Origin: Niallia circulans
GTDB lineage: Bacteria; Bacillota; Bacilli; Bacillales; Cytobacillaceae
Assembly (NCBI RefSeq): GCF_007273535.1
Contig: NZ_RIBP01000001.1
Coordinates: forward strand, 1,178,001 to 1,242,000
Reading direction: 5' to 3'
Length of the DNA: 64,000 bases
Both the position numbers and the translations under genes were made by a program. The notes under the pieces are model-generated. The model was not told where the DNA came from and did no database searches. It worked only from the letters and a program-made list of their open reading frames with translations. Shown piece by piece: positions 38,657 to 64,000 of this stretch. Within the stretch, counting starts at the first letter, position 1, and the number at the start of each line of letters is the position of its first letter.

Positions 38657-39835
38657 CTACCAGTACATCCTCCAGCTCATAGCTGTACGGATTAGTGCTT
38701 CAAAATAATAATAATCTCCCCAAATACAACATTCATCCACTCCATTATTATCAGGCTTCGAGTAAACTGCATGTTGCAGTATGCCATTGGAAGGAACCTC
38801 TTTCGTTGTATAGTTTTCGGCAAGTGATTTAATCATTTTTATGGCTGCATTTTCATACAATTCTCTGTATGGATTGGAAATCGGCAGATGCTTGCTTAAT
38901 TCAAGCAGCCCACATGCCATGATGGCAGCTGCTGAGCTATCACGTTCCTCCGAACCCTCTGTAAATATCAAGTCCCAATAGCAGACAGCATCTGCAGGAA
39001 GACGATTAAGAAAATAGTTTGCTAGTCTTTCCGATAAATCAAGGAATGCTCGATTTCCGGTATGCACATAGCTTAATACAAATCCGTACACTCCCCATGC
39101 TTGGCCACGAGCCCAGCATGATTGATCCGTATAGCCTTGCGCCGTCTTTCCATATAGGGGATTTCCTGTTGCCGTATCCATGTAAAAGGTATGGTATGTG
39201 GAAGAATCCGCTCTAACAATATATTTAGCTGCCTGTTCAGCATGATTTACGGCAATATCATAATACTTTTTATCACCTGTTACCTTTGAAGCAAAATACA
39301 ATAACGGCAAGTTCATGTTGCAATCTATGATCATTCTTCCATGCTGCTCAGGGTCGGATAAATCACCCCATGCTTGCAGAATTTTCGCCTTATTATGATA
39401 GCGAATGATTAACTTATCAGCCGCTTTTATGGCGGTTTCCTTTGCTGTGTTGTCATTCAGCACTTCATATCCCGCTACACTGGATAACGAGTATAAAAAG
39501 CCGATATCATGTGTTTCTAGCTGGATATTTTTTGTTAATCGGTCTTTAAAGCTTTCAAGCTGTATTTTTATTACTTGAAGATACTTATCATCATGTGTAT
39601 ATTCATACGCTAGATAAAGCATGCCTATCCAAAAGCTCGCCGTCCAATCAGTGTTTTCTTCCGGGATATAAACTAAGTTTTTTGACGCAGCAGGCGGTAC
39701 TTTCGTTTTAAATATATCGAGATTTCCATCTATTTTGCGCAAAACGAACTGAATCTCCTTATCCAACCACTCTTTATTTAATTCAGTTCTGATTTTAAAT
39801 TTATCATGTTTTATCCCTTCATTAATGCTTGTCAT
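38657..39835 (-). CDS. Glycoside hydrolase family 88, unsaturated glucuronyl hydrolase
   Basis: The 392-residue (alpha/alpha)6-barrel enzyme has no signal peptide and so acts in the cytoplasm. D110 in ETHDIGF and D171 in IIDCNMNLPLL match the catalytic pair of Bacillus and Streptococcus enzymes, and WARGQAWGVYGF is the conserved substrate wall. GH88 enzymes hydrate the C4-C5 double bond of unsaturated uronic acids that lyases leave on glycosaminoglycan, gellan or xanthan fragments, releasing the uronate. It follows the DUF2264 gene by about 60 bp in one unit, divergent from an AraC regulator. Confidence 0.93.
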   Translation of the reverse strand: MTSINEGIKHDKFKIRTELNKEWLDKEIQFVLRKIDGNLDIFKTKVPPAASKNLVYIPEENTDWTASFWIGMLYLAYEYTHDDKYLQVIKIQLESFKDRLTKNIQLETHDIGFLYSLSSVAGYEVLNDNTAKETAIKAADKLIIRYHNKAKILQAWGDLSDPEQHGRMIIDCNMNLPLLYFASKVTGDKKYYDIAVNHAEQAAKYIVRADSSTYHTFYMDTATGNPLYGKTAQGYTDQSCWARGQAWGVYGFVLSYVHTGNRAFLDLSERLANYFLNRLPADAVCYWDLIFTEGSEERDSSAAAIMACGLLELSKHLPISNPYRELYENAAIKMIKSLAENYTTKEVPSNGILQHAVYSKPDNNGVDECCIWGDYYYFEALIRTAMSWRMYW

Positions 39836-39895
39836 ATTTTGGCTCCTTCCATGCTTTCAATTTATAAGGTCATAATGACTGTTGAAGAAAAACTT

Positions 39896-41047
39896 CTACA
39901 AACACTGGTCAATTGGGAATGCCTTTCCTGACCAGGCTCTTTTTGATGTCCAGTCCATTGCTGGCTGACTCCAGAACGGGTCTGACTCTGCCAGACCTAA
40001 TGGCAGGAATATTGCGGCACACAAATAAACACTGCCTGTCGAGATATAGTCTTCACCAATCTCTGGTTGATGACCGCAAAACCCTATAGTCAGCCAGCCT
40101 GTATCGGTAAACGTATCTGGGGCTTCAAGTGACCGTTTCAATACTTGAGTTAGCGCACTTCTGATTTGTTCAGGAGCTAATTCTCTCGGTAAATCCTGAC
40201 GCAATGCATGATGAGCTAATGTTTGAAAAACACCGAAACGATAAGCAATCGACCTTCCTACTGGTGGAAAAGTCCCTTCTGGTGAAATTAAACGCTCTTG
40301 TATAACCGCATACCGTTTCGATCTTTCTATAAAAGTACCCTTTCTTTCAAGCCAGTCCTTGTACTCTTCTCCAACCGTTTCCAATAAATCTACAAGCATA
40401 GGATGGATAACAAAGCTATTATAATAATCAAAATGAAACTCAGGACCATCGCTATAGACTCCGTCACCCAAATACCATTGGTCAAATTGCTTAACAGCAA
40501 AATCAATCCGCATCGGGTCCCAGTCCTTCTCACCAGCCTTATATAAAAAGGCCTCTATCACTGCAGAAAATAGAAGCCAATTCGAATAAATCGGTTTCCT
40601 TGTCCTGGTAGCTTTCATCGCGGTAATCACATTTTTCTTAACCCTTTCATGAAGTGGCTCCCATAACTCATTTGGAGCTCTAAGAAAGGAATGGGCAAGA
40701 AAAGCTGTATCCACAATCGGCTGAAGATCCTCAGAAAAATTCATGTAGTCTGGAGAATGTGGATCAGTACCTGCATCAATCGCTAAGCGTGCTAGCTCAC
40801 AATACTGGATACGAAGTGCATTTTCCTCACTATTTTCGCTTTTCATTTCTAACCACGGAGCCATTCCAACAAGCAGTCGAGATAACGCTTCCAAATGAGT
40901 GAATTGATCACGGTTCGTGTCTTTTTTCATCTCGATCGGCATTACTTTTTTTAGAGTCCCAGCCTTTAAATTTTCAAGTACCGGGTTTGCAATTTTAAGC
41001 ATGGCTTGAAGCCAATATTTGCGAATTTCATCGTTCTCCTCTATCAC
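39896..41047 (-). CDS. DUF2264 domain protein, probable (alpha/alpha)6-barrel carbohydrate enzyme
   Basis: The 383-residue cytoplasmic protein matches the DUF2264 layout: an N-terminal DRDQFTHLEALSRLLVGMAPWLE-like start, repeated helical segments, and DGPEFHFDYYNSFVIHPMLVDLLE in the middle. The family is often found in polysaccharide loci; I recall links to GH154 beta-glucuronidases but cannot verify that here. GGAGGGTG precedes a GTG start at 41047. It leads the GH88 unit, which suggests removal of another residue from the same oligosaccharide. Confidence 0.8.
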   Translation of the reverse strand: MIEENDEIRKYWLQAMLKIANPVLENLKAGTLKKVMPIEMKKDTNRDQFTHLEALSRLLVGMAPWLEMKSENSEENALRIQYCELARLAIDAGTDPHSPDYMNFSEDLQPIVDTAFLAHSFLRAPNELWEPLHERVKKNVITAMKATRTRKPIYSNWLLFSAVIEAFLYKAGEKDWDPMRIDFAVKQFDQWYLGDGVYSDGPEFHFDYYNSFVIHPMLVDLLETVGEEYKDWLERKGTFIERSKRYAVIQERLISPEGTFPPVGRSIAYRFGVFQTLAHHALRQDLPRELAPEQIRSALTQVLKRSLEAPDTFTDTGWLTIGFCGHQPEIGEDYISTGSVYLCAAIFLPLGLAESDPFWSQPAMDWTSKRAWSGKAFPIDQCL

Positions 41048-41239
41048 TTTTTCACCCTCCTATTTCTACCATTTGCTTTACTAAATTATAACTTACGTAT
41101 TATTCTTAAAGTGTTTGTTAAATAACCAAAAATGTTGTTCTATTGCTCTATATTGCCAAAGATAAATAGTTAGAAAGAATATCCTAGAGATTTCGAATAG
41201 TAAGCTCTCAATGATTGATTAATAGGTGGAGGAATTTCG

Positions 41240-42112
41240 GTGAATAATTTATTTGAACAAATTGATCTTAATCCATTTAACTGGGTTTATCGCAGGGTTT
41301 CAGAGAAGGATTTCCAAGGTTATTATCACTGGCATCAAGGCTGTGAACTATTATTCGTCTATCGTGGAAAAGGGCGGGTAATTGTTAACCAGCAGACTTA
41401 TGAGATGAAAAGAGGGATGCTTTTCTTTTTTCAGCCTTTTCAATTACATAAAATATATGTAGACGTATCACCTGAAACTCCGTATGAGCGAAGTATTCTT
41501 CATTTCGATACGTTGATGCTCGGAGAAAGTAATCTTAATCATGTACCAGGTCTTAATAGTCTGTTAAAACAATTACAATATGGTGTAAATGAGCTGCAGG
41601 CATTTGATTTAGAAGATGTCTATAGTTACTTATATGAGGTTTATGAGATATTTAACAAGTCTTTACAAACAAAAAACTGGGAGGAAGATGCCCAGCTCTT
41701 TCTAATGCAGTTACTCTCTTGCATCCGCTTAAAAGACTACAGTACCTATACTAATGCAACCTCTAATCTCCCTTTGCGGCCACTGCTCTATTCGGAAAGG
41801 ATGATGAACTGGATAGAAGCACATTATATGGAGCCCTTTAACTTAGAACAATTAGCTGATGAGCTGCATTTATCAAAATCATATTTATCAAGAAGCTTTA
41901 AACGTGAGACGGGAAGCAGTTTAACAGAATACCTTACAATTCGAAGGATAAAGGAAGCATGTCAATTACTTGAGATGACTCATAAATCGGTTGAATTTAT
42001 TGGTGAAAGTGTAGGAATAAAAAATACGTCCTATTTTATTCAGTTATTTAAAAAAGTGGTCGGAATCACTCCGCACCAATATAGGCTAACGCACCAGAAG
42101 GCCAACCATTAA
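41240..42112 (+). CDS. AraC family transcriptional regulator
   Basis: The 290-residue protein has an N-terminal cupin sensor (HWHQGCELLFVYRGKGRVIVNQQTYEMKRG, about 30-110). A C-terminal double helix-turn-helix follows (about 195-290, LEQLADELHLSKSYLSRSFKRETGSSLTEYL and the VGIKNTSYFIQLFKKVVGITPHQYR signature). GGAGG stands 7 nt before a GTG start. Divergent from the DUF2264/GH88 unit 192 bp away, it is probably the sugar-responsive activator. TATTGC repeats 10 bp apart at 41141-41156 may be part of its site. Confidence 0.9.
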   Translation: MNNLFEQIDLNPFNWVYRRVSEKDFQGYYHWHQGCELLFVYRGKGRVIVNQQTYEMKRGMLFFFQPFQLHKIYVDVSPETPYERSILHFDTLMLGESNLNHVPGLNSLLKQLQYGVNELQAFDLEDVYSYLYEVYEIFNKSLQTKNWEEDAQLFLMQLLSCIRLKDYSTYTNATSNLPLRPLLYSERMMNWIEAHYMEPFNLEQLADELHLSKSYLSRSFKRETGSSLTEYLTIRRIKEACQLLEMTHKSVEFIGESVGIKNTSYFIQLFKKVVGITPHQYRLTHQKANH

Positions 42113-42171: not shown

Positions 42172-43506
42172 TTACTTATTTCTTCCTATATATGCTCTTC
42201 CGTTTTCAGCTTCCTTAGCCCATCTATCTGATGGAGTGCCAGGTACTGCCCCTTGTAACAGGGGATCGTTAGTTTCCTTCATCCAGTTGGAAACTTTCAT
42301 CCTTAGCTGTTCGGCTACCTTCGCATATTGTGGCTCATTAATAAGATTTGTGTATTCTAATGGATCTTTCTCCAAGTCGTAAAGTTCTTCAATATCATTA
42401 GGAACATAATAATCTTTACGTACCTCAGCACCAGAAATACTACTGTGAATATCCATAGGCATATATATTTTCGGGCCATCCTCAAAATTTTTTACATATT
42501 TATACTTTTCTGTACGAATTCCACGCATCGGATGATAGTTATCATGCCAAGTTAGTTCACAGAAAAAGTCTTCCCGAATTTTCGCTGCTGACTCTGTTAA
42601 TAACAGTGGCGCAAAGCTCTTTCCGTCTAAATCCTCTGGTACAGGTAATCCTGCTAACTCTAGTAGGGTTGGCATAAGATCTACATTACAAAGTAAATCA
42701 TTAGAAACGATGTTTGTTCCGAATATCTTAGGGTTATAGAAAATTAATGCGGTTTCTAAGCCTGCTTCTTTCATTGTTCCTTTTGCTCTTGGGAAAGCTA
42801 TTCCGTGATCTGTCGTGTATACAACAATTGTATTATCAATAAGACCTGTTTCTTCTAACGTTTCCATAATCTTTTTTACCGCAGCATCTAATACTTTCAC
42901 AGAGCCGTTCATTAATGCAATCTCCTTACGAATTGCTTCTGTATCTGGCAAGTAATCTGGAACTTCTACGGCAGCGATTTCATCTGCAAATGGTTCATAC
43001 TCATCAAATGTACGATGCGTTTCCCAGAAACCAATATTTGCAAAGAATGGCTTGCCATCTTTACTTTTTTCCTGCAAATACTTAACAGCACTTTCGGCTA
43101 CTTGTGGAGCTCTTGATCCTTCTATTTTCTCATAGCGGTCATATCCTAGCTTATAAGAAGAAGTCCAAGTACCTCTTTCTGTATGACCAACGGTTTCGTG
43201 ACTAAAACCAATCAATGCAGACTCATATCCACTTTCGGAAAATTTAGTAGGCATGGTAGAAACACTTTCATCAATCCCAAATTCGTAATGTGCTAATCCA
43301 ATTAGTCCATTATTATGCGGATATAACCCTGTTAAAATACTGCCGCGACTTGGGCTGCATTGGGGTGCAGGGCAAAAGAATTGATCGAATCGTACTCCTT
43401 CAGCCGCCAACCGATCTATTTCAGGAGACGCAACAGCCTTCCCATAGCATCCTAAATGTCTTCCAGTGTCATGTGAAATCATAAATACTATATTTGGATT
43501 ATTCAT
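42172..43506 (-). CDS. Cytoplasmic Cys-type sulfatase, N-sulfoglucosamine sulfohydrolase-like
   Basis: The 444-residue S1 family sulfatase has the formylglycine motif C50-S-P-S-R54 with GSILTGLYPH, metal ligands in SHDTGRH (about 12-18) and YTTDHGIAFPRAKGTM. The FCPAPQCSPSRGSILTGLYPHNNGL and IAFPRAKG regions resemble sulfamidases that remove N-sulfate from glucosamine. There is no signal peptide, so it acts inside the cell. AAGGAGTG is 6 nt before the ATG at 43506. It lies 15 bp after the double-EIIB PTS gene in the same unit. Cys50 must be converted by the FGE encoded nearby. Confidence 0.9.
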   Translation of the reverse strand: MNNPNIVFMISHDTGRHLGCYGKAVASPEIDRLAAEGVRFDQFFCPAPQCSPSRGSILTGLYPHNNGLIGLAHYEFGIDESVSTMPTKFSESGYESALIGFSHETVGHTERGTWTSSYKLGYDRYEKIEGSRAPQVAESAVKYLQEKSKDGKPFFANIGFWETHRTFDEYEPFADEIAAVEVPDYLPDTEAIRKEIALMNGSVKVLDAAVKKIMETLEETGLIDNTIVVYTTDHGIAFPRAKGTMKEAGLETALIFYNPKIFGTNIVSNDLLCNVDLMPTLLELAGLPVPEDLDGKSFAPLLLTESAAKIREDFFCELTWHDNYHPMRGIRTEKYKYVKNFEDGPKIYMPMDIHSSISGAEVRKDYYVPNDIEELYDLEKDPLEYTNLINEPQYAKVAEQLRMKVSNWMKETNDPLLQGAVPGTPSDRWAKEAENGRAYIGRNK

Positions 43507-43521
43507 TTGAATCACTCCTTC

Positions 43522-45354
43522 TTATTCTCCTACAATTTCTTCAATTTCTGTTTTTATAATTGGTACATGAGGTCCATAGATGACTTGTACTCCATTTCCA
43601 CGAAGCATTACGCCCTTTGCTCCTGTTGTTTTCAGGTCTGCTTCTGATACTTTAGACGAATCCTTAACCGTAACTCGTAATCTTGTTGCACAATTATCTA
43701 CCTCAGATAAGTTGTCTTTTCCACCTAATGCGGCAATAATTGTTGCAGCTCTATTATTTTCTTCAACAGTAACAGCCGCTTCGGCTTCTGCTTCTTCATC
43801 TTCACGACCAGGTGTTTTGTAATTAAACTTTGTAATTAAGAATCTAAAGACAACATAGTAAACAATAAAGAATGCAATTCCAATAAGTGGTATTAAAATC
43901 CAGTTCGTTTTATCATTCCCTTGAAGAATACCAAACAAAGTTAAGTCGATTAATCCAGCTGAAAAAGTCATCCCTACTGTTATATGGAAAATATGAGCGA
44001 TCATATAAGCTAGTCCCCAAAGTGCAGCGTGTGCAACAAATAGTACTGGTGCAACAAACAAGAATGCAAACTCAAGTGGTTCAGTTATACCAGTTAAAAA
44101 GGAAGTCAACGCACCTGTAGCAAGCAAGCCGAATACTTTCTTTTTATTTTCCGGTTTTGCTGTATGATAAATAGCAATCGCTGCACCGATTAAACCAAAC
44201 ATCATTGGGAAGTACTTACCTGTCATAAAGCGAGCTGTACCGATGTAGTATTGGTCGACATTAGGATCTGCTAGCTGTGCGAAAAAGATATTTTGCGCAC
44301 CTTGCACAACATTACCTGCAACCTCCAATGTGCCACCAAGTCCAGTTTGCCAGAATGGTAAATAAAAGATATGATGCAGTCCAAGTGGACCCAATAATTT
44401 AACAATAAATCCGAATAGGAATGTACCAAAATAACCTGTTTTATCCACCAAGCTACCAAGCTGTGCAATCCCATCTTGAATAGGCGGCCATACTACATAC
44501 ATGGCAATTCCTAGAAAGATGGAAACAACGGAAGTAATAATTGGGATAAAACGAGAACCGCTGAAAAATCCTAAAAATTGCGGAAGCTGAACTTTATTAA
44601 ATCTACTGTGAAGCAAATACGTAACTAAACCAGAGATAATTCCGCCAAAAACACCCGTTTGTAGTGTTTGAATACCTAATACCATCCCTTGCCCGACACC
44701 AGCTAAATTCTCTGTTGCTAAATTATCCGTTATTATTAGCATCGCATTTAATGAAGCGTTCATGACAAGATAGGATAAAACGGATGCTAACCCTGCAACT
44801 CCCTTATCTGATTTCGCCAGCCCTACGGCTATGCCAATCGCAAATATCAATGGCAGATTTCCAAATATAATGTTTCCTGCTGAACTCATAATAGTGAAAA
44901 TGGCTTGCAGGATTGTATGATCTAAAAAAGGATAAAGTGCAATTGTATTAGGGTTTGAAAATGCTCCCCCAATCCCTAATAACAGTCCTGCTGCTGGCAA
45001 TACTGCAATCGGAAGCATAATAGCCTTGCCAAACATTTGAAATTTGCTGAATAGCTTGTTAAACATATTTTCGTCTCTCCCCTCTTCATTCCCTGAAGAT
45101 TCTAATTCTGTCTTTTCTCTAACTATTTCTTGATATAATTGAAAGGTAGTTTCTTTTCCCAGCAATATATGCAGCTCATGTTCTCGATAAAGAGCAGCAT
45201 ATACACCTTTTAATGCCTTTAGTTCTTCTAGGTTTGCCTTGTCATTTTCAGCTAGTTCTAAACGTAATTTGGTTGCACAAGCTTCTACATGCCGGATGTT
45301 TCTAATTCCGCCTATATGATTTATAAAAACGGGGTACAAATCATTTTGTTCCAC
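43522..45354 (-). CDS. Glucose/GlcNAc-type PTS permease with EIIB-EIIC-EIIB architecture
   Basis: The 610-residue protein starts at GTG 45354 after GGAGGGGG; upstream codons to 45417 overlap the antiterminator hairpin. An N-terminal EIIB domain (Cys26 in EACATKLRLEL) is joined to EIIC (about 95-510, MFNKLFSKFQMFGKAIMLPIAVLPAAGLLLGIGGAF). A second C-terminal EIIB follows (Cys555 in DNCATRLRV). Phosphate would come from the separate EIIA encoded upstream. The GlcNAc/glucose-type EIIC and the adjoining sulfatase suggest uptake of an amino-sugar-containing oligosaccharide. A LicT-type antiterminator controls it. Confidence 0.9.
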   Translation of the reverse strand: MEQNDLYPVFINHIGGIRNIRHVEACATKLRLELAENDKANLEELKALKGVYAALYREHELHILLGKETTFQLYQEIVREKTELESSGNEEGRDENMFNKLFSKFQMFGKAIMLPIAVLPAAGLLLGIGGAFSNPNTIALYPFLDHTILQAIFTIMSSAGNIIFGNLPLIFAIGIAVGLAKSDKGVAGLASVLSYLVMNASLNAMLIITDNLATENLAGVGQGMVLGIQTLQTGVFGGIISGLVTYLLHSRFNKVQLPQFLGFFSGSRFIPIITSVVSIFLGIAMYVVWPPIQDGIAQLGSLVDKTGYFGTFLFGFIVKLLGPLGLHHIFYLPFWQTGLGGTLEVAGNVVQGAQNIFFAQLADPNVDQYYIGTARFMTGKYFPMMFGLIGAAIAIYHTAKPENKKKVFGLLATGALTSFLTGITEPLEFAFLFVAPVLFVAHAALWGLAYMIAHIFHITVGMTFSAGLIDLTLFGILQGNDKTNWILIPLIGIAFFIVYYVVFRFLITKFNYKTPGREDEEAEAEAAVTVEENNRAATIIAALGGKDNLSEVDNCATRLRVTVKDSSKVSEADLKTTGAKGVMLRGNGVQVIYGPHVPIIKTEIEEIVGE

Positions 45355-45406
45355 TTTATCCCCCTCCAAGGTGTTTGAAATTTTGCAAAAAAGAGATATG
45401 AAGTAT

Positions 45407-45485
45407 AAAAAAGGCAAGACCTAAAAAGACAAAGAGGTATACTCTCTACCTTTTTAGGTCTTGCCTGATTTAACAGTAACAATCC
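45407..45485 (-). promoter_or_regulatory. RAT antiterminator and overlapping terminator before the PTS permease
   Basis: On the minus strand GGATTGTTACTG then TTAAATCAGGCAAGACC (45485-45457) matches the ribonucleic antiterminator recognised by LicT/SacT proteins. Its 3' end overlaps a 17-bp terminator stem (45412-45428 with 45450-45466) followed by six Ts. Binding of the LicT-type protein encoded immediately upstream would open this terminator and allow expression of the permease and sulfatase. Confidence 0.88.
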
Positions 45486-45492: not shown

Positions 45493-46323
45493 TTAAATAT
45501 TTTTGTCCTTAAGCCTTTGGATATGCAGTGTAAGAAAACCAATTTCTGATTCTGGAACATCATACTTATATTCTTCATTTAGATAAATGGCGAGTACTTC
45601 TGCACATTGATAACTTTGTTGATATTTACTTTTCACTATTTCCAACATATCAATGTCCATTTCATGAAAAGCCTCATTCTTCTCCATCCTGCTTATTACA
45701 AACTCTAAGTGTGTTAAGAAGCGATAATAGCTTAATGATTCCTTGTTTATTTCCATATTAAGATGACTCGCTACAATATCCATTAAGTCTTGTAAAATAA
45801 ATGTTCTTTTTAGCGGTACATCAATATTACTTTCATTTATTGTACTTGTATGAATATGCAAAGCAATATAACCAGCTTCATCAATTGGCAGTTGAACACC
45901 TAGTTTTAATTTTACTTGTTCAATAGCCCATAAACCTATTTCATATTCTTTTGGATAAAGAACCTTCACTTCACTTAATAGCCTATTCCTAATTGCGATA
46001 CCCTTTTTAATACGATCTATTGCAAATGCTAGATGATCTGTTAAAGCAATGTGAATATGGCTGTTAAGCTCTGCTTTTAATTGTGATTCCGTATAAGAAA
46101 TGATGTCTTCTGCAAGCGATACATACGACTCTGGTAATGACTGTAATAATTCTTGAAATTGTTTTGTCTCATTTTTCAAAATAAAAACCTTTTCAATTTT
46201 CTGTTCCTGAATGATATCATTTTTACTTTTTTGGAATGCGATCCCAGGACCAAGAACAATTTTCTCCATACCATCTTCAATTATAATGACTGCATTATTA
46301 TTTAAAATTTTATTGATTCTCAT
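45493..46323 (-). CDS. BglG/LicT-type transcriptional antiterminator
   Basis: The 276-residue protein has an N-terminal RNA-binding CAT domain (MRINKILNNNAVIIIEDGMEKIVLGPGIAFQKSKND, about 1-58) and two PRD domains with conserved His sites (DHLAFAIDR, HIHTS; THLEFVISRM, LHIQRL). It binds the two RAT sequences that lie before the EIIA gene and before the permease gene. PTS phosphorylation of the PRDs should switch it off when no sugar is present. The longer frame to 46380 overlaps the EIIA gene; ATG 46323 begins the conserved CAT domain. Confidence 0.92.
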   Translation of the reverse strand: MRINKILNNNAVIIIEDGMEKIVLGPGIAFQKSKNDIIQEQKIEKVFILKNETKQFQELLQSLPESYVSLAEDIISYTESQLKAELNSHIHIALTDHLAFAIDRIKKGIAIRNRLLSEVKVLYPKEYEIGLWAIEQVKLKLGVQLPIDEAGYIALHIHTSTINESNIDVPLKRTFILQDLMDIVASHLNMEINKESLSYYRFLTHLEFVISRMEKNEAFHEMDIDMLEIVKSKYQQSYQCAEVLAIYLNEEYKYDVPESEIGFLTLHIQRLKDKNI

Positions 46324-46366
46324 ATAGTTCCATTCCCACCCATATAGGAAATTAAGGGATAATAAG

Positions 46367-46858: not shown

Positions 46859-46880
46859 TGTTAACACTCCTTTTAAACGT

Positions 46881-46957
46881 AAAAAGACCTAAAACAAGCT
46901 AGAGAAATACATCTCTAAAATGTCTTAGGTCTTGCCTGATTTAACAGTAACAAATCC
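46881..46957 (-). promoter_or_regulatory. RAT antiterminator and overlapping terminator before EIIA
   Basis: On the minus strand GGATTTGTTACTG then TTAAATCAGGCAAGACC (46957-46928) is a second LicT-type RAT. It is nearly identical to the one before the permease apart from one extra T. It overlaps a terminator stem (AGACCTAA/TTAGGTCT plus inner AGAGA/TCTCT) ending in five Ts. The whole operon entry is thus under the same antiterminator. Confidence 0.85.
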
Positions 46958-48004: not shown

Positions 48005-48018
48005 GTACATCACACCTT

Positions 48019-48555: not shown

Positions 48556-48569
48556 CAATGATTCCCCCT

Positions 48570-55067: not shown

Positions 55068-56552
55068 TTACTTTTTCTCTAAACCCAAGCGTACATATTG
55101 TTCGTCTGGTGCATCACTTTTTTGCATAAGATCGACTAATTTATGGCTCATTTCTTTTTCCAATTCATTATCAACTATAGGATTTTCCTGCTTGGGATCA
55201 CTTTTAATATCAAATAATAAATTACCTGACTTATAAGTGTTATAGAGACTATTAACTGGTATTTTTAAATAAGGAGACTTATTTGTAAATTTTGATTCTG
55301 GCATCAGTTCTGCTTCATTTATTGATTGTTGACTTAAGAAACCTCTTATATTTGTAACCGCTAAAGTATGATTGAATAATGGTCCATTATTTTGCTGAGC
55401 AGCTGCTCTCATATAGGTGTATTTTCCATCATGGATATTAACATAAGAACCATGTGTGCCAAATAATATGGAATCATGATTAGCTTTTTTTTCTTTTGCT
55501 AAGATTGGAAGAAGCGAATTCCCCAAGACCATAGTGCTCTCAAATGAAACTTGAAAATAATCCATTAATGTAAGAGGAATATCTATTGTTTGTGATAAAG
55601 CTGAACATCTAGTGCCGCCAATTGTAATATTAGGAACATGAATAAAAAAAGGAATGTGAATAACTTCTTCATATAACGGAGCGATATTCTTACCAACCCA
55701 ATTATGCTCTCCTAACAAAAAACCATGGTCTGTATTAACAATAAGAAGTGTATCTTTCCACATATCTTGCTCGTCCATAAAATCAAGCACTTTCCCAAGG
55801 TGATAATCACACATACTAATTAAGGCAGCATATTCTTTTTGAAGGGCATCTATGTCTTCCTCTTCATAGTCGCCATCATTTAACTGTTGATATGCCGGCC
55901 AGTATGGTATATCTTTTTTATCCTCACAATCATAAATTTCCCGGTACTTTTCTGGCACATAGAAAGGTTCATGCGGATCAAAACATTCAATTTGTAAGAA
56001 CCAATTGTCTTTTTCTTTATGTGTTTTTAAAAAATCAAGACCTGCAGTAATTGTTTGAACACTGGACATATCTTCTTCACGCTGTTGTCTAGTTCTATTT
56101 GCGAAATGCTGTAAGACAGATAAACCTTGCTTATTCATTTTATGTTTATTTTCATTTGGCAAAGCTTCCCCTCTGGCAATCCATCTATCACCTTCCTGAC
56201 CTCTAAAACCTTCCCATGTTGAATACCGGTTATGGTAGGTAGCTCCACCATCCTCAAAGTAATGGGAATGATCTGTTACTAAATGTGTGTATACTCCCTT
56301 CTTCTGTAACTCTTCGAAAACTGATTTATCAAATGATTCAAGAGGTCCCCATTGACGGTGAAGGAAATTATAATTTCCTGTATGCAATTCTCTTCTCGCT
56401 GGCATGCATGGCATACTTCCACCATAAAATTGATCAAAAGTAACTGTTTTTTCCTGCAATCGTTTGAAGTTAGGAGCATGCACCCAATCATTATGATAAT
56501 TCGGAAGAAAATTCCGAGATAAAGTATCAAACATTAACATTACTGCTCTCAA
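55068..56552 (-). CDS. Cytoplasmic Cys-type sulfatase with a CxPAR signature
   Basis: The 494-residue S1 sulfatase begins at TTG 56552 (MRAVMLMFDTLSRNFLPNY, the usual start of this subgroup); GAGAGGAGTAGG lies just upstream, and the frame to 56606 lacks support. The modification motif is C49-M-P-A-R53, with Ala in place of the usual Ser, then RELHTGNYNFLHRQWGPLE. Metal ligands are in MFDTLSR and VNTDHGFLLGEHNWVGKN. There is no signal peptide. It is a single gene, with a tandem TTTCCCAA element before it that also stands before the EIIBCA gene, so the two should be co-regulated. Confidence 0.9.
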   Translation of the reverse strand: MRAVMLMFDTLSRNFLPNYHNDWVHAPNFKRLQEKTVTFDQFYGGSMPCMPARRELHTGNYNFLHRQWGPLESFDKSVFEELQKKGVYTHLVTDHSHYFEDGGATYHNRYSTWEGFRGQEGDRWIARGEALPNENKHKMNKQGLSVLQHFANRTRQQREEDMSSVQTITAGLDFLKTHKEKDNWFLQIECFDPHEPFYVPEKYREIYDCEDKKDIPYWPAYQQLNDGDYEEEDIDALQKEYAALISMCDYHLGKVLDFMDEQDMWKDTLLIVNTDHGFLLGEHNWVGKNIAPLYEEVIHIPFFIHVPNITIGGTRCSALSQTIDIPLTLMDYFQVSFESTMVLGNSLLPILAKEKKANHDSILFGTHGSYVNIHDGKYTYMRAAAQQNNGPLFNHTLAVTNIRGFLSQQSINEAELMPESKFTNKSPYLKIPVNSLYNTYKSGNLLFDIKSDPKQENPIVDNELEKEMSHKLVDLMQKSDAPDEQYVRLGLEKK

Positions 56553-56640
56553 TTTATTCCTACTCCTCTCAAAATGAAAATAGTTATACACTACTATAGT
56601 TATCATTATATTATTGTTTTGCTTCTTTTTTAGCTAATCT

Positions 56641-56739: not shown

Positions 56740-58656
56740 TTATACATGTAAAGAAATTATATTGCCTCCAAAATCTATTGGTTGTTCGTTAGCAACCTTA
56801 ATTTCTTTGTACTGATCCTGATTAGTTACTACAACCGGTGTCACAATCGGATAACCCGCTTCCTTAATTTTCTCAATATCAAACTCAATTAATAACTGTC
56901 CTTGTTCAACTCTATCTCCTTGTTTAATATTAGTTGAGAAGAACTTCCCTCCTAATTGCACTGTATCCATTCCGATATGCATGAGGATTTCTGCTCCAGA
57001 ATCAGTAGTAATTCCGATTGCATGTTTTGTTGGAAATACTGCTGAAACTATCCCGCTTACAGGGGACATTAATTTCCCTTCAGTCGGAGTTATCGCAACT
57101 CCTTTCCCAAGTAAACCAGAAGAAAAGGCAGCATCATCTATGTCAGATAGATTTTTCACTTCTCCTTTTAGTGGACTGAAGATAACTACATCTGTAGGAA
57201 CATTCTTTTCTTGCACTTGCTGAGCTTTTACGTTTTGCTTTAACTCTTCCTTTTCTTTCTTTTTATCTATTCCGAAGAAATAAGTTAAGATAAACCCAAC
57301 GATTAAGTTTGCTGCCATCGCAATGACCGCACCCCAAAATCCCATATCAATTCCATCAGGACTAATTTTAGTTGGTAAACCAAACACACCAAGTCCGCCC
57401 ATCATATATGCTTTTGTCCCCATAATCCCCATTATGCACCCACCGATAGAGGAGGTTATAAGAGTGATAATAAATGGTCTTTTTAACGGTAGTGTAATCC
57501 CATAAAGCGCTGGTTCTGAAACTCCAAATATTGCGGATATAAATGCTGGTATACTTAATGTTTTATATTTTTTTTGCTTAGTAGCAACTAATACTCCTAA
57601 GACAACACCAGCTGTTGCCATTGATGTGGCAGAATTAAATGCTAATATATAATCACTGCCATGAACACTAATATTATTAATAGCAATTGGAACTAATCCC
57701 CAGTGCAAACCAAACATAACAAATACCTGCCATAAGCCTCCAACTACAAGACCAGTTAGAATTGGACTTAAATCATAGACCCAGAGAGTTCCTTCACCTA
57801 AAAGCTTACCTAACCAGGTTGCTACAGGACCAATCACGATGAACGTTAATGGAACGATTACTAATAAAGTAAAGAAGGGTACCAAAAAATTCTTAACAAC
57901 ATCTGGAATTACTTTAGCAAACCATTTTTCTAATTTCGTTCCTACATATGTCGCAAGTATAATAGGAATGACAGAGGATGAGTAAGACATTAGAATAACA
58001 GGAATACCTAAAAAAGTTATATGAATGGGTGATTCAAAAATAGTACCTGTAAATAAAGTGTAAAGCGGATCACCAGAGCTCAAACCCGACAGCGTTGGAT
58101 AAACTAACGCAGCACCTATTGCCATCCCAATAAAATGGTTGCCTCCAAATTTCTTCATGGATGTATATCCTAAGAAGATAGGGAAAAAGTAAAATAATGC
58201 ATCACCAACAGCATTTAAAATTTGATAGGTTCCCGTTGTATTTGCATACAAACCAAGAGCAACAAATAGCGCATTAAACCCTTTAATCATTCCAGTAGCT
58301 GCCAGAACTCCTAAAGTAGGCGCAAAAATACCAGATATAATATCTATAAATTTATTAAATAGTCCTTGACTCTCTTCTTGAACATTTTCTGAACCTGATG
58401 TATTTGACTCAAATCCTCCAACTCCAAGGACTGCTTTATAAACATCTGGAACATGATTTCCGATTACGACCTGATATTGTCCTCCACTCTTCATAACCGT
58501 GATGACATCATCCATGTTTTTTAAAACCTCTGTATTTGCTTTGCCTTCATCCTTTAACTTAAATCGTAACCGAGTTATACAATGCACAACACTGTTAACA
58601 TTCTCTTTTCCCCCGACATTTTCAATGATGTCTTTTGCTAACTGTTCGTATTTCAT
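56740..58656 (-). CDS. Beta-glucoside-type PTS permease EIIBCA
   Basis: The 638-residue three-domain permease has EIIB at 1-90 (phospho-Cys26 in VVHCITRLRFKL) and EIIC at about 100-450 (LGVLAATGMIKGFNALFVALG; ISAIFGVSEPALYGITLPLKRPF). EIIA is at about 490-638 (H in FPTKHAIGITTDSGAEILMHIGMD). This is the BglP/BglF family, which takes up and 6-phosphorylates beta-glucosides and similar sugars. AGGGGAGG precedes the ATG. It has its own EIIA, so it is a complete transporter. GH4 and RpiR genes are nearby. Confidence 0.92.
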   Translation of the reverse strand: MKYEQLAKDIIENVGGKENVNSVVHCITRLRFKLKDEGKANTEVLKNMDDVITVMKSGGQYQVVIGNHVPDVYKAVLGVGGFESNTSGSENVQEESQGLFNKFIDIISGIFAPTLGVLAATGMIKGFNALFVALGLYANTTGTYQILNAVGDALFYFFPIFLGYTSMKKFGGNHFIGMAIGAALVYPTLSGLSSGDPLYTLFTGTIFESPIHITFLGIPVILMSYSSSVIPIILATYVGTKLEKWFAKVIPDVVKNFLVPFFTLLVIVPLTFIVIGPVATWLGKLLGEGTLWVYDLSPILTGLVVGGLWQVFVMFGLHWGLVPIAINNISVHGSDYILAFNSATSMATAGVVLGVLVATKQKKYKTLSIPAFISAIFGVSEPALYGITLPLKRPFIITLITSSIGGCIMGIMGTKAYMMGGLGVFGLPTKISPDGIDMGFWGAVIAMAANLIVGFILTYFFGIDKKKEKEELKQNVKAQQVQEKNVPTDVVIFSPLKGEVKNLSDIDDAAFSSGLLGKGVAITPTEGKLMSPVSGIVSAVFPTKHAIGITTDSGAEILMHIGMDTVQLGGKFFSTNIKQGDRVEQGQLLIEFDIEKIKEAGYPIVTPVVVTNQDQYKEIKVANEQPIDFGGNIISLHV

Positions 58657-59015: not shown

Positions 59016-59777
59016 TTATTTTCCATTAAGATATTCTACATAGCTATAAACCAACATTTCAATAATTACATGAATAGGGCTATATAAAGAATATATACTA
59101 GTTACAGTTGTAGGTGAGTCAATATTTGCATAAAGACTAAATGTAGAGTGATCCATTAACCAATTGTTAGCATTTGCAGTGATTCCCAGTATTTTAACGT
59201 TTTTAAGGATAGGAGTTGTCAAAGCTTCCTTTAACACCGGATTATTACCTGAGCCTGAAAATACAATCAGCAAATCCTTCTCGCACATTCTCTCAATCAT
59301 AATTTGATAGAGACTAGTATGCCCAAATGGGAGAACTTGCATTTCTTTGCCAATCCCCAAAAACATTCTCTGCATTTCTGAGGCTTGATTTTGTTGGGCC
59401 CAACCTGTGCCAATAATATATATATGTTCGCTATTTTCAATCGTTTGAAATATTTCAAGCATGCTTTGATTTTTTAGAATCTCTACTGTGTTAGTGACAC
59501 TCTTCACTATTTGCTCACCCAAATTACTTTTTACATCTGGATTTTGAGAAAAGTAGTTTCCCCATTTCATAAAGTTTTTTAATTCTGTAAATCCTGAAAA
59601 TCCTAATTTTTGAGCAAATCTTAACACAGATGATTTAGATGTTAAACTTTTAGATGCAAGTTGGTTTATGCTTAACTGATGAATGATTTCTTTATTTTTA
59701 AGTATATATCCTGCAATGGCAAGTTCACCTTCACTGAACGAACTATATCTTTCATTAATTAGGTTCTCAAGTTGCAT
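59016..59777 (-). CDS. RpiR/MurR family regulator
   Basis: The 253-residue regulator has an N-terminal HTH_6 domain (about 1-77, HQLSINQLASKSLTSKSSVLRFAQKLGFSGFTELKNFM). A C-terminal SIS sugar-phosphate binding domain follows (about 105-240, IYIIGTGWAQQNQASEM and LLIVFSGSGNNPVLKEAL). RpiR proteins bind phosphosugars from PTS uptake. A 37-bp palindrome upstream recurs before the CHR/FGE operon, so I infer it controls that unit and itself. GGAAGGGGAG stands before the ATG. Confidence 0.9.
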   Translation of the reverse strand: MQLENLINERYSSFSEGELAIAGYILKNKEIIHQLSINQLASKSLTSKSSVLRFAQKLGFSGFTELKNFMKWGNYFSQNPDVKSNLGEQIVKSVTNTVEILKNQSMLEIFQTIENSEHIYIIGTGWAQQNQASEMQRMFLGIGKEMQVLPFGHTSLYQIMIERMCEKDLLIVFSGSGNNPVLKEALTTPILKNVKILGITANANNWLMDHSTFSLYANIDSPTTVTSIYSLYSPIHVIIEMLVYSYVEYLNGK

Positions 59778-60047: not shown

Positions 60048-61223
60048 CTATTTAAAATACGCATTATATATCTCAATAGCGCCACCTAATGCAACCGATT
60101 TCTCTCCTAATTTACTTTTTTGAATGATTATATTAGAGGTGATGTTTATATTTTCCTTTATTGTTTGTACCACTTTTTCATAATAAGCAGGGTACTGATA
60201 AATCAACTTACCATGCAGAAATACTTTGCTTGGATGCAAGATATTAATCATATTACTTATACCTACACCGTAGTAATAAGCTGATTGCAATACTAGCTCT
60301 TGTACTTCTAAATCATTATTTTTTAATAACTTCATAATAAAATCAAAGGCGTTATCCTCAATTGTTAATAGCGAGATATCTTTTTTCGCTACAATCTCAT
60401 CCAATAAAGATTTATATGTTGTGTAAGCAGCTAAGCAGCCTTTTTTCCCACAAATACAGTCTTTTCCATTAATATCAATCACAATATGTCCAGCTGCACT
60501 TGAATCGCCTGCTTGATTATTACCTGGTACACCACTTTCTAAAAAACCTGTTCGCACACCATAACCATTAATACAGAATAAAATAGAGTCATTTAACAAA
60601 CTATTTAAATAATATTCAGCATAGGCAGCTGTATTTGCTCCATTATTTAAAGTAATTGGTAAAGAAAATTCCTTATTAAGCATTTCGACTATAGCTACAT
60701 TATTCCATTCAGTTGCAACAAAACTATCTGGATTTAAAATTATTCCTTTTTCCCTATCAAGCGGCCCTACAGATCCTATTCCAATACCTAGTAAAGCTTT
60801 ATCTTTAATCTTATACTTTATTAATAAGTTTTTTAAATCAAAAATCAACTTAGGTATTACCTTTTCTGGAGTATCTATTGCATGTAATTTATATTGAATC
60901 TTTTCTACTTCTTCAAATAATATATTTGTTAAAATAGCTGTTACATGAGTTCTAGATATATCAATTCCTATTACATAGGCGGCATTAGGAACAATTGCAT
61001 AATACGTAGGTGGTCTTCCACCTGAAGGTTCTCCGGTTCCATCATTATAAATAAATCCTTTATCCTGTAAGTCGTAAATTATTCTTGTCAAGGTAGTTTG
61101 AGGTAAATTAAAAGCTTGCAAGAGTGCAATTTTAGATATCCTTCTGTGTAAGTGAATATATTTATAAATTTGTTTCTTAATATTATTTTTTTCCGAGTTA
61201 TCTAATAAGAAATCCTTTAACAT
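60048..61223 (-). CDS. ROK family transcriptional repressor (NagC/XylR type)
   Basis: The 391-residue repressor starts at ATG 61223 (MLKDFLLDNSEKNNIKK); the frame extends to a GTG at 61301 without a ribosome binding site. A winged helix (about 20-75, HRRISKIALLQAFNLPQTTLTRIIYDLQDKGFI, then SGGRPP) is followed by the ROK sugar-kinase-like domain. That domain has VIGIDISRTHVTAIL, AAYAEYYLN and the zinc motif GHIVIDINGKDCICGKKGCL. Such proteins are derepressed by free sugars or amino sugars. It is a single gene between two RpiR genes. A TATTCA-CTA-TGAATA palindrome lies just upstream. Confidence 0.9.
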   Translation of the reverse strand: MLKDFLLDNSEKNNIKKQIYKYIHLHRRISKIALLQAFNLPQTTLTRIIYDLQDKGFIYNDGTGEPSGGRPPTYYAIVPNAAYVIGIDISRTHVTAILTNILFEEVEKIQYKLHAIDTPEKVIPKLIFDLKNLLIKYKIKDKALLGIGIGSVGPLDREKGIILNPDSFVATEWNNVAIVEMLNKEFSLPITLNNGANTAAYAEYYLNSLLNDSILFCINGYGVRTGFLESGVPGNNQAGDSSAAGHIVIDINGKDCICGKKGCLAAYTTYKSLLDEIVAKKDISLLTIEDNAFDFIMKLLKNNDLEVQELVLQSAYYYGVGISNMINILHPSKVFLHGKLIYQYPAYYEKVVQTIKENINITSNIIIQKSKLGEKSVALGGAIEIYNAYFK

Positions 61224-61294
61224 TCTATCACTCTGTTCCCTGTTTTTTACTAATATATCATATATCTTTAAGAATGAAAAAGATAAATTCATAA

Positions 61295-61309
61295 TATTCA
61301 CTATGAATA
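61295..61309 (-). promoter_or_regulatory. Palindrome upstream of the ROK regulator
   Basis: TATTCA-CTA-TGAATA is a perfect 6-3-6 inverted repeat about 75 bp before the likely ATG. A second TATTCA half-site is seen at about 61362-61368. It may be the autoregulatory operator. Confidence 0.4.
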
Positions 61310-61532: not shown

Positions 61533-62300
61533 TTAAACGTTATATAAACCACCATCAATAGTATAGGAAGATGAAGTAATGTAAGTAGATTCATCAGAGA
61601 TTAAAAACGCAATAACATTTGCTACTTCTTCAGGTTCACCATATCGCTTCATTGGAACTGCATCATTGTAGGCATGTTTTGCTGCCTCAGCGTCTTCTGA
61701 CACATTTGATTCAATATTACGCATCATTTGTGTATTAATGACACCTGGATTAACAGTATTCACACGCACATTATAAGTTGCTGCTTCTAAAGCTGCTACT
61801 TTATTAATACCCATTACAGCATGTTTAGAAGAATTATATAATCCCATACTTGGTGCTCCAGTTAACCCAGCTACAGAAGATGTATTAACAATGGAACCAG
61901 CATTCTGCTGTTTCATCACAGGCAATACATATTTAAGACCAAATAGCACACCCTTCACATTAATACCATATACAAAATCAAAGTCTTTTTCTGTTATTTC
62001 TTCAATTAGTTTAGCTGGACCTTCAACGCCTGCATTATTTACGAAACCATCAATTCGACCAAATTTAGCTATTGTTTGATCAACATAATTTTTAACATTC
62101 TCTTCATTTGAAACGTCAGTTTGTACAACTAAACTGTTATTTTGAGTTAATTGAAGCTCTGATTGTACTGCTTCAATTGCTTCTTTGTTTAAATCGACTA
62201 GTACTACCTTTGCCCCGCCACTAACTACTTTTTTCACTACTTCTTTCCCGATACCGCCAGCTGCTCCAGTAACTATAATAACTTTATCTTTAAAATTCAT
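61533..62300 (-). CDS. Short-chain dehydrogenase/reductase
   Basis: The 255-residue SDR has the cofactor loop VTGAAGGIG (about 10-18), D36 in VLVDLN favouring NAD+, NNAG, the catalytic Ser in NTSSVAG and YNSSK with Tyr and Lys. The TIDGGLYNV end is typical. AAGGGG is 8 nt before the ATG at 62300. It stands alone with a terminator. In glycosaminoglycan pathways an SDR (KduD/DhuD) reduces the keto acid that isomerisation of the released uronate yields; this one could do that but could equally act on another sugar. Confidence 0.87.
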   Translation of the reverse strand: MNFKDKVIIVTGAAGGIGKEVVKKVVSGGAKVVLVDLNKEAIEAVQSELQLTQNNSLVVQTDVSNEENVKNYVDQTIAKFGRIDGFVNNAGVEGPAKLIEEITEKDFDFVYGINVKGVLFGLKYVLPVMKQQNAGSIVNTSSVAGLTGAPSMGLYNSSKHAVMGINKVAALEAATYNVRVNTVNPGVINTQMMRNIESNVSEDAEAAKHAYNDAVPMKRYGEPEEVANVIAFLISDESTYITSSSYTIDGGLYNV

Positions 62301-62454
62301 TTTCAAATCCCCTTTAAATGTATTTAATTAAGATATCTCAAATTAATAATAACATAGGTTATTTTAAATAACCAACAATTTAACTCAGATAATTTAATAT
62401 GTTTTTAGTTTATGTTATTCTTTTCAAGTAAATCGTTAAAAAATAAAAAGGGGC

Positions 62455-62543: not shown

Positions 62544-63434
62544 CTATTCATCAACAAGATCTAGTCTTCCCTCTTTCATAACTTTATTCGAACTTTTTCT
62601 GTGATCAAAATATTTAGAGATATGAATTTTATTTTCAAGGTTATGCTCGTAATTTAATGAAAAAACACAAGCATAAAGGACATTTAATAAAAAATTAATT
62701 GATTCGTTTGTGGTAAAGCTGTCAATTTTGGAATACAATCTTTCTCTTGTTGTTATCCTTAAAATGCAATCAGCATATTTAGTTAAAGTATTTTCGCCAA
62801 TACTTGTTATAGCAAGGATAGGAACCCGCTTTTCCTTTAAAAATGGTAATAGTTCAACGGTATTTTCACTTTCTCCACTATAGGAGATAACTATTGCACA
62901 ATTATCCACTGAAGAGTTTGCTGCTTCAAAATGGGGATCAATAGTACAAAGACTAACGTATTTCCCAATCCGATTCATCTTCGCTTTAAAGTCATGACAA
63001 ATCATTAAATTATGATAGACAGAAAAAACTTTAATATGTGCTGCTTTTTCCAACATTTTAGTTGCTTTTTGCAAATCTTCATAATTTATAAGAGACAAAG
63101 TATCACTAATGGTTGTCTGATTCAGTAATGCCATTTTACTTGCAACAGTCATGATATTATCCTGTGCCTCAAAAGGATAATTAGCATCTACATTTGAATA
63201 ATGACTGTTTAAATACTCTATCTCTTCTAGAAAGACTTGTTTCAATTCAATCCAACCACTATACCCCAACTTCTTTGCGATCCTGATTAAGGTAGACGGA
63301 TGAGTGTACGTTTCCTTCGAAATTTCTTGTGTTGTTTTATCTTTTATCTGCTCCCTCTGTTCAAATATATAAGTAATTATTGCTCGTTCAGATGAAGAAA
63401 ACATATCCTCCCGCATTTTTTCTGTCAATAACAT
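62544..63434 (-). CDS. RpiR/MurR family regulator
   Basis: The 296-residue regulator has HTH_6 (about 1-80, SKETYTHPSTLIRIAKKLGYSGWIELKQVFL) and a SIS domain (about 130-260, IKVFSVYHNLMICHDFKAKM and AIVISYSGESENTVELLPFL). GGAGTTGATTAAAT precedes the ATG. It is divergent from the GH4 gene, and the 238-bp space between them is full of GTAAAT/ATTTAC half-sites, so it most likely controls the GH4 gene in response to a phosphosugar. Confidence 0.9.
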   Translation of the reverse strand: MLLTEKMREDMFSSSERAIITYIFEQREQIKDKTTQEISKETYTHPSTLIRIAKKLGYSGWIELKQVFLEEIEYLNSHYSNVDANYPFEAQDNIMTVASKMALLNQTTISDTLSLINYEDLQKATKMLEKAAHIKVFSVYHNLMICHDFKAKMNRIGKYVSLCTIDPHFEAANSSVDNCAIVISYSGESENTVELLPFLKEKRVPILAITSIGENTLTKYADCILRITTRERLYSKIDSFTTNESINFLLNVLYACVFSLNYEHNLENKIHISKYFDHRKSSNKVMKEGRLDLVDE

Positions 63435-63464
63435 ATTTAATCAACTCCATCATCTTTTCCACTT

Positions 63465-63651
63465 GTAAATCACATTTACATTTAAACATATATTTTGTAA
63501 ACAAAAATGTAAATACCAAATGATTTATCTCTAAACCTATTGTTAATAAATCTACTTATTTTATACTACAAATAACAAGAAGGAAATGACCTACTGATTT
63601 CCTCTTTGATTTAAATTTACAAACTTTTTAACTATATGTAAATATATTTAC
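63465..63651. promoter_or_regulatory. RpiR/GH4 intergenic operators
   Basis: GTAAAT-CAC-ATTTAC (63465-63479) and the 14-bp palindrome GTAAATATATTTAC (63638-63651) are both symmetric. More half-sites lie between them (ATTTAC at 63615-63620, TGTAAAT near 63508). The right-hand palindrome is only 7 bp from the GGAGGG ribosome binding site of the GH4 gene. Confidence 0.6.
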
Positions 63652-63672
63652 CTATTTTGGAGGGAAAGATTG

Positions 63673-64000
63673 ATGGCTAAAGGCATAAAAATTGTAACTA
63701 TAGGTGGAGGCAGCAGCTATACTCCTGAACTAATGGAAGGTTTTATTAAAAGATATGACGAATTGCCAATTAGAGAAATGTGGCTCGTTGATGTGGAGGA
63801 AGGAAAAGAAAAACTTCAGATTGTTGGTGAGATGGCTCAAAGAATGTGGGATGCTTCTCCATATGATGTAAAAGTTCATTTAACATTAGACCGGCGTGAG
63901 GCACTAAAAGAGGCAGATTTTGTTACGACACAATTTAGAGTTGGTTTATTGAATGCACGGATTAAAGATGAAAGAATTCCTTTATCTCATGGAATGGTAG
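63673..64000 (+). CDS. Glycoside hydrolase family 4, probable 6-phospho-beta-glucosidase (partial)
   Basis: The first 109 codons are in the window and the gene runs off the right edge. KIVTIGGGSSYTPELMEGFI (about 5-24) is the NAD+-binding start of GH4, followed by MWLVDVEEGKEKLQIVGEMAQRM and ADFVTTQFRVGLLNARIKDERIPL, as in LicH/CelF. GH4 enzymes use NAD+ and Mn2+ to split 6-phospho-glycosides made by PTS uptake. GGAGGG is 8 nt before the ATG. It matches the EIIBCA and cellobiose-type PTS genes in this island. Confidence 0.9.
   Translation, partial: MAKGIKIVTIGGGSSYTPELMEGFIKRYDELPIREMWLVDVEEGKEKLQIVGEMAQRMWDASPYDVKVHLTLDRREALKEADFVTTQFRVGLLNARIKDERIPLSHGMV

Follow-up and report, generated by a model that had tools for sequence, protein, structure and literature searches.

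When sulfated sugars are brought into a bacterial cell and stripped of their sulfate there, where does the sulfate go? The question is raised by a 64,000-nucleotide stretch of Niallia circulans (assembly GCF_007273535.1, contig NZ_RIBP01000001.1, positions 1,178,001 to 1,242,000), here called the window, in which positions 38,657 to 64,000 hold an island of three phosphotransferase systems (PTS), three sulfatases (S1, S2 and S3), a formylglycine-generating enzyme (FGE) and, directly upstream of the FGE gene, two adjacent genes of the CHR family (PF02417), CHR1 and CHR2. We consider it probable, from gene content and conserved gene order, that sulfated sugars would enter by the PTS and be desulfated in the cytoplasm, and that the sulfate would be exported by the CHR pair. 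Cytoplasmic sulfatases release one sulfate for each ester cut, and the sulfate from a sugar used as carbon should exceed the demand for sulfur many times over; its fate is a step easily overlooked in accounts of cytoplasmic desulfation.

An earlier note on this DNA, made from the letters alone, had overlooked the CHR pair, as well as two ribonucleic antiterminator (RAT)-like sites with terminators and another FGE island elsewhere in this genome. This second island (L004, G000:C3:800001-820000) lies about 400 kb away and contains a beta-glucoside-like PTS, a GH1 gene, LicT, two sulfatases, two MFS_2 permeases, ROK and LacI genes and a second FGE gene (FGE2), downstream of which lie LysR and a TauE/SafE exporter gene. 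Since the two FGE genes of the genome are each near an anion-transporter gene, and these transporters belong to different families, we tested for linkage across the order to which the genome belongs. FGE occurs in 50 of its 397 genomes, with 55 matches at E 1e-50 or better, a few of them partial; CHR and TauE genes were located in these 50 genomes, and the 53 FGE neighbourhoods outside the source genome were read, some of which end at contig ends. A CHR gene lies within 7 kb of at least 11 of the 55 FGE genes, spread over 7 of 32 genera, against 0.43 predicted from gene number and genome size, and a TauE gene lies within the same distance of at least 7 of the 55, in 5 genera (0.74 expected). 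Two of these seven TauE proteins are divergent, their identity being confirmed by Pfam, and in one locus (L052) an FGE-ROK unit stands next to a SulP-STAS sulfate transporter. The CHR linkage is denser in a second family, that of genome G418, where FGE is found in 100 of 197 genomes (117 genes) and CHR lies within 5 kb of at least 54 of these genes (53/100 genomes, 11/14 genera), 51 of the 54 having it within 2 kb; this count is a lower bound, as CHR2 partner rows were partly left out.

The arrangement of these genes is also conserved. The most frequent layouts are CHR1-CHR2-ROK-FGE (L007-L009, L031, L037 and L038) and, in two genomes, FGE-ROK-CHR1-CHR2 (L006 and L010); L047 has CHR1-CHR2-FGE-ROK. 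The window itself has CHR1-CHR2-FGE, and its ROK gene, which stands 12 kb off, is homologous to those of the modules (379 bits to the ROK of L006). Larger parts of the island recur as well, with genes labelled by similarity to the proteins of the window and of the second island. In P. massiliensis (L097), a single stretch contains RpiR, a beta-glucoside PTS, S3, FGE, CHR1, CHR2, a lactose-type PTS, S2 and LicR, so that the right half of the window recurs there in synteny, together with two radical-SAM maturase-type genes; Metabacillus bambusae (L084) has CHR1-CHR2, MFS_2, a sulfatase S4, EIIA, LicT, PTS and S1. In L019, a window-like FGE-EIIA-LicT-PTS-S1 operon has a divergent TauE gene in place of the CHR pair. 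By a hand-picked few of the FGE genes without CHR or TauE, the transporters form no pattern: DUF624 is seen twice, and SulP, MatE, MFS, an Na/H exchanger, a spore permease and an AcrB-type protein are each seen a single time. An AcrB-type RND protein gene at L043:5347-8472 lies close to FGE in a genome of this Gram-positive order; L044 has a frame of the same length, likened to it by length only.

CHR pairs are found not only by FGE. Radical-SAM maturase-type genes, called with a profile built in this analysis and confirmed by radical-SAM and SPASM domains in L074 and L087, accompany CHR pairs in L074, L087, L090, L097 and L100, so the CHR link follows sulfatases and not the chemistry of FGE. 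The gene row of L074 reads sulfatase, maturase, ROK, CHR1, CHR2 and GH1, with a PTS alongside. In L076, both maturases are accompanied by a CHR pair and ROK, and L075 combines a maturase and two sulfatases with ROK and SulP. These loci bear on the idea that the pair works for FGE, perhaps by transporting an ion that this copper enzyme requires. CHR2 and FGE almost touch in the window, and CHR genes often adjoin FGE or stand one gene (ROK) off, as such a role might predict. In L074, L090 and L100, however, the pair stands by radical-SAM maturase-type genes with no FGE in the stretch read, in L084 and in L099 of Paenibacillus macerans, where PTS genes also stand alongside, it adjoins sulfatases with no maturase in view, and TauE or SulP occupies similar places, so that we regard a service to FGE as highly improbable. 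We gave up copper supply as the cause of the link in view of the radical-SAM maturase-type genes that CHR adjoins as well.

An export role is further supported by the distribution of linked genes within the CHR family. A CHR1 alignment scan of named genomes yielded 80 loci, and 17 of the 33 best-scoring ones carry FGE, maturase-type or sulfatase genes in the stretch read, as opposed to 0 of the other 47 (Fisher 1e-8), with the cut set after the scores were known and some of the 47 stretches short (to about 4.5 kb). A CHR1 tree of 96 proteins was made to check this cut, without L082 and L083, which duplicate L047 and L008; L092 dropped out of a separate clustering of the gene neighbourhoods. 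The tree resolves a clade of 47 rows (SH-aLRT 98) that includes 27 of the 29 linked rows and nine ROK-only rows, while the two linked rows outside it are L074 and L100.

The family name points to a different function. CHR proteins, which are found in bacteria, archaea and fungi, are named for chromate efflux, and for the Bacillus subtilis YwrB-YwrA pair a role in chromate efflux has been described, together with a regulator that responds to chromate, sulfate co-extrusion by YwrBA also being discussed in the part of the report at hand (PMC8940164). Like YwrB-YwrA with ChrS, the window has a two-gene short-chain CHR transporter, made of single-domain PF02417 proteins, about 180-240 aa long, encoded side by side, and it might be a cassette for resistance to chromate or another oxyanion that stands in the island by accident. 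In a 1998 title by Nies, CHR proteins reportedly figure as probable chromate/sulfate antiporters. Unlike the B. subtilis pair, which is tied to a chromate-responsive regulator, the window pair is tied to sulfatase maturation. CHR1, the member that was scored, reaches 80 and 74 against the NCBIfam ChrA/ChrB equivalog cut-off of 250. With this score, with linkage to FGE beyond chance in both the order and the second family, and with nearly all sulfatase-linked CHR1 rows in one clade, an accidental resistance cassette seems very unlikely.

What best explains the occupation of similar places by three unrelated transporter families, CHR, TauE and SulP, is one shared task, which would be the removal of sulfate. 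SulP is the sulfate permease family, and small anions, sulfite among them, are exported by TauE proteins, according to the part of the source available to us (PMC10413263). The gene identities, the motifs and the conserved linkage of CHR and TauE genes, with two SulP cases, to sulfatase maturases can be read from the sequence; that the exported ion is sulfate, that it moves outward and which sugars are involved we infer from them. We lean, with little to spare, towards a stronger statement, namely that the CHR pairs of this kind form a distinct Bacillota subfamily of dedicated sulfate exporters, interchangeable with TauE/SafE and SulP, that evolved for sulfate and not for chromate.

Several observations weigh against these proposals. 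Among the matches listed, no CHR, TauE or SulP gene is seen near 36 of the 55 FGE genes of the order, where SulP was not searched systematically and several of the 36 loci are cut by contig ends, and in the second family, where the search covered CHR only, 63 of the 117 FGE genes lack a CHR gene within 5 kb; local export is thus not obligatory. The number expected by chance in the second family, about 0.6, assumes three CHR loci per 6.6-Mb genome, and all the chance figures overstate independence because the genomes are related, a kinship despite which the spread over genera in the two groups does not go away. A sample of 17 loci of the radical-SAM sulfatase maturase anSME (15 above the family cut-off, several cut by contig ends) contains CHR or SulP in only three, and 14 have neither. 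Among the 33 best-scoring CHR loci, seven have ROK only and nine have no sulfatase, maturase or ROK gene, five of these nine adjoining CBS-HTH, Kinase-PPPase and GlpX genes instead. Since a sub-branch of five Paenibacillus members has such other neighbours, the subfamily is not for sulfatases alone, and for the window-type CHR proteins both sulfate as the substrate and the outward direction are putative.

In Paenibacillus, the CHR pairs of L104, L106, L108, L114 and L119 stand by CBS-HTH, Kinase-PPPase and GlpX genes with no sulfatase in reach, a setting that suggests that the pair has another role there or is a remnant.

The mechanism that we propose for sulfate export would combine PTS-plus-sulfatase units (the glucose type with S1, the lactose/cellobiose type with S2 and the beta-glucoside type with S3) that share one maturation-and-export unit. 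The three importers would phosphorylate sulfated mono- or disaccharides as they bring them in, FGE would oxidise the active-site Cys of cytoplasmic S1-S3 to formylglycine, the sulfatases would free inorganic sulfate within the cell, and the CHR1-CHR2 pair would move it outward, preventing pile-up while the sugar is used as carbon. LicT antitermination at the two RAT/terminator sites would turn on the S1 unit. Two separately regulated neighbours, DUF2264 and GH88, would remove terminal beta-glucuronic acid without a lyase in two steps, dehydration followed by hydration and release.

Parts of this design have been described before. The earlier note regarded a PTS-plus-FGE design in an aerobic Bacillus-type organism as little described; the design itself has a precedent, a pneumococcal island with comparable parts reported in 2012. 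According to the part of that report by McAllister at hand, the Streptococcus pneumoniae island contains ROK, a PTS, a sulfatase, a sulfatase modifying factor and a TauE-family protein, and deletion of ROK raises PTS and sulfatase transcripts (PMC3283741). A ROK gene, a cellobiose-type PTS, a sulfatase and a modifying factor are common to this island and the window, whereas the place by the modifying factor is taken by TauE/SafE in S. pneumoniae and by the CHR pair here. The pneumococcal island has a putative single PTS and sulfatase, and the available sections mention neither a GH88/dehydratase unit nor export (PMC3283741). In the acesulfame gene cluster and in sulfonate degraders, TauE/SafE exporters are found and export of waste anions has been proposed, again going by part of the source (PMC10413263). 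As is proposed for the window, the acesulfame cluster encodes an anion exporter together with cytoplasmic enzymes that free a sulfur-containing anion, but the exporter is of an unrelated family, its substrate is sulfamate, and the sulfatase is of the metallo-beta-lactamase type (PMC10413263).

As far as the consulted sections of the pneumococcal report go (PMC3283741), the combination of a PTS with a sulfatase, its modifying factor, ROK and TauE is already known. What is added here is the connection with CHR and how widely it holds, the replacement of CHR by TauE or SulP, and an account of GH88 that needs no lyase. A search of open PMC papers by titles and starts of abstracts, with subscription papers outside its reach, found no paper on a link of CHR with sulfatases or their maturases among the matches listed. 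The pollutant after which the CHR family is named is seldom encountered by most of its hosts, and the repeated tight link to sulfatase maturation gives these proteins a natural job that can be tested. For the Gram-positive bacteria of these loci, the removal of sulfate could set a limit to growth on sulfated sugars of host, algal or plant origin.

The genes for the enzymes that would generate the sulfate are all in place. The earlier note had listed three sulfatases without signal peptides, an FGE with both catalytic Cys residues, three PTS systems, GH88, DUF2264, GH4 and SDR genes, and AraC, LicT, LicR, two RpiR and ROK regulators within 25 kb, and Pfam matches recover every one of these genes in its place (Table 1). 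S1, S2 and S3 are type I Cys-sulfatases, each with a C-x-P-S/A-R motif and a PF00884 score above cut-off, and their N-termini, judged by eye, lie at or near the first beta-strand with no signal peptide. The FGE alignment to 6s07 spans query residues 40-321, and both Cys of the C-x4-C motif, which we take to be the catalytic residues, align with those of solved FGEs. The source genome has seven Sulfatase-family matches and two FGE genes. In the FGE, anSME and CHR loci that were read, 78 of 79 sulfatase frames look cytoplasmic by a crude N-terminal test (some duplicates and fragments are included and the LTA-synthase-type sulfatases of L003 and L005 are left out), so that cytoplasmic sulfatases would seem to be the rule in relatives of this bacterium.

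It is on the nature of the sugars that we depart from the earlier note, in which lyase-made fragments of the glycosaminoglycan type are imported and desulfated and GH88 cleaves their unsaturated uronate. Uptake by PTS and FGE-activated desulfation in the cytoplasm fit the anatomy; the glycosaminoglycan step does not fit as well, and we think this account of the island unlikely, although glycosaminoglycans are possible substrates. GH88 is closest to streptococcal unsaturated glucuronyl hydrolases, S1 contains an SGSH_C domain and matches the N-sulphoglucosamine sulphohydrolase 4mhx (E 6e-36), and a GH154 enzyme acts in a chondroitin pathway, as stated in the part of the source at hand (PMC12269599), all of which would suit such fragments. 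The window PTSs, by contrast, are of the glucose-specific, lactose/cellobiose (subfamily) and beta-glucoside types, each above its NCBIfam cut-off, and on these groups sulfated glucose/glucosamine-, beta-disaccharide- and beta-glucoside-type substrates may be expected. None of the three is of the mannose family, by which streptococci import hyaluronan disaccharides. The best solved matches of S1-S3 come from mixed substrate classes, that of S1 being an S1_8A sulfatase (E 3.5e-46), and GH88-DUF2264 with AraC forms a separate unit convergent with the S1 operon. For Hepar_II_III, no match was found in the genome while two controls were positive; a PL8 search of the source genome also gave no match, though control genomes likewise had none, and other lyase families were not searched. 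The PTS groups, the Hepar_II_III result and a lyase-free route for GH88 are thus why glycosaminoglycans are not favoured. Only tentatively do we name a sulfated glucose- or glucosamine-type monosaccharide as the substrate of S1; a sulfated beta-disaccharide for S2 is an equally provisional assignment, as is a sulfated beta-glucoside for S3.

The lyase-free route follows from the gene that adjoins GH88. The earlier note held that GH88 works on lyase-made uronides, which is not required here, because the DUF2264 protein is a homologue of beta-glucuronate dehydratase, and this enzyme yields GH88 substrates from saturated ends, according to the available part of its description (PMC12269599). DUF2264 is homologous to BcGDH and BD-beta-Gal and keeps nine of ten BcGDH active-site residues, N176 being Ser here and Thr in 8oi4. 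Alanine mutants of the ten residues are inactive on chondrosine, which is by the paper's own account a poor BcGDH substrate (PMC12269599, in part). The name DUF2264 itself gave no match in the open full-text literature, and the enzyme was identified through PDB names. GH88 matches solved members over its full length, with THDIGFLY and IIDC aligned to HHDLGFLY and IIDC, motifs that presumably hold the catalytic Asp positions. Together, DUF2264 and GH88 would form a lyase-free exo-glucuronidase route for terminal glucuronate. As with BcGDH and BcGH88 of Bacteroides caccae, in the portion of the report at hand (PMC12269599), a GH154/DUF2264 dehydratase is encoded with GH88, but the window pair is in a Bacillus-type genome, stands by an AraC gene and has no recognised lyase adjoining it. 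DUF2264 is found in 14 of the 50 FGE-bearing genomes of the order as against 6 of the other 347 (raw counts across related genomes), an excess that hints at shared diets. Of 22 DUF2264 matches, 12 loci were read, at 4 kb each, and a GH88 or sulfatase match was seen in the window's own locus only (0/11 others), a point that qualifies this hint. Outside this set of 12, Paenibacillus qinlingensis (L114:16002-19700) has consecutive SDR, GH88 and DUF2264 genes, with a CHR pair about 5-8 kb away.

In the S1 operon, RAT-like sites precede EIIA and EIICB, and a LicT-type gene lies between them. Both sites resemble the RAT consensus; they differ by two mismatches, and a pattern made from site 2, which also picks up site 1, gave 0 matches in 100 shuffles. 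The combination of LicT with two RAT/terminator sites suggests that the EIIA-LicT-EIICB-S1 operon may be under substrate-controlled antitermination. In B. subtilis, bglPH is controlled by LicT antitermination through RAT sites. The window resembles that system in having LicT with RAT sites overlapping terminators ahead of a PTS operon and differs from it in having a glucose-type EIICB and a sulfatase as the last gene.

Table 1. Genes and candidate regulatory sites of the sulfatase island, in window coordinates
Feature	Position	Strand	Evidence and remarks
GH88 unsaturated glucuronyl hydrolase	38657..39835	-	PF07470; 2zzr/3anj E 5e-109
DUF2264, GH154-type beta-glucuronate dehydratase homologue	39896..41047	-	PF10022 400 bits; 9o4u E 2e-103; 8oi4 E 8e-104
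AraC regulator	41240..42112	+	Pfam; divergent from DUF2264-GH88, convergent with S1
Sulfatase S1, Cys type (CSPSR)	42172..43515	-	PF00884, PF16347
PTS EIICB, glucose-specific	43522..45417	-	PF02378, PF00367; TIGR02002 609 bits vs cut-off 591.8; longest frame, true start probably further downstream
RAT-like site 2, before EIICB	45454..45484	-	Overlaps 20-pair terminator stem 45417-45461; z -6.9
LicT-type antiterminator	45493..46380	-	PF00874, PF03123; NF046042 LicT 290 bits vs cut-off 300
PTS EIIA, glucose type	46367..46867	-	PF00358
RAT-like site 1, then terminator stem, before EIIA	46925..46955	-	Fold z -4.9
Promoter-like TTGACA-17-TATGAT before EIIA	46978..47006	-	Consensus match only; site number in region equals chance
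FGE	47027..48010	-	PF03781; solved FGEs E 7e-122; start 48010 or 48004, about 10 bases past CHR2
CHR2, second half of pair	48019..48558	-	PF02417 149 bits
CHR1, short-chain CHR protein	48570..49184	-	PF02417 162 bits; frame extends to 49283, start set at about 49184 from homologue alignment
LicR/Mga-type PTS-controlled regulator	49426..51306	-	PF00874, PF00359, PF05043
Sulfatase S2, Cys type (CVPSR)	51339..52772	-	PF00884
Lactose/cellobiose-type PTS	52887..54883	-	TIGR00410 245 bits vs cut-off 236
Lactose/cellobiose-type PTS subunits	IIB 52887-53189; IIA 53189-53497; IIC 53519-54883	-	
Sulfatase S3, Cys type (CMPAR)	55068..56606	-	PF00884
Beta-glucoside-type PTS EIIBCA	56740..58656	-	TIGR01995 753 bits vs cut-off 614.7
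RpiR regulator	59016..59777	-	PF01418, PF01380
ROK regulator (NagC/Mlc-like)	60048..61301	-	PF00480
SDR oxidoreductase	61533..62306	-	Pfam
Second RpiR regulator	62544..63434	-	PF01418, PF01380
GH4 start	63670..64000	+	PF02056, PF11975; gene crosses window end, to L002:1055

Two minor observations concern sulfatases elsewhere. At L057:8457-10690, the FGE matches are broken up over two frames and the adjoining sulfatase is truncated, which may mean that the maturase and sulfatase genes are decaying together. Finally, S1-like sulfatases by FGE are accompanied by GH65-family genes in L046 and L033 (Pfam-checked), frames of similar size occur in L049 and L056 (likened by size only), and the S1 relatives at GH65 loci may act on sulfated alpha-glucosides.

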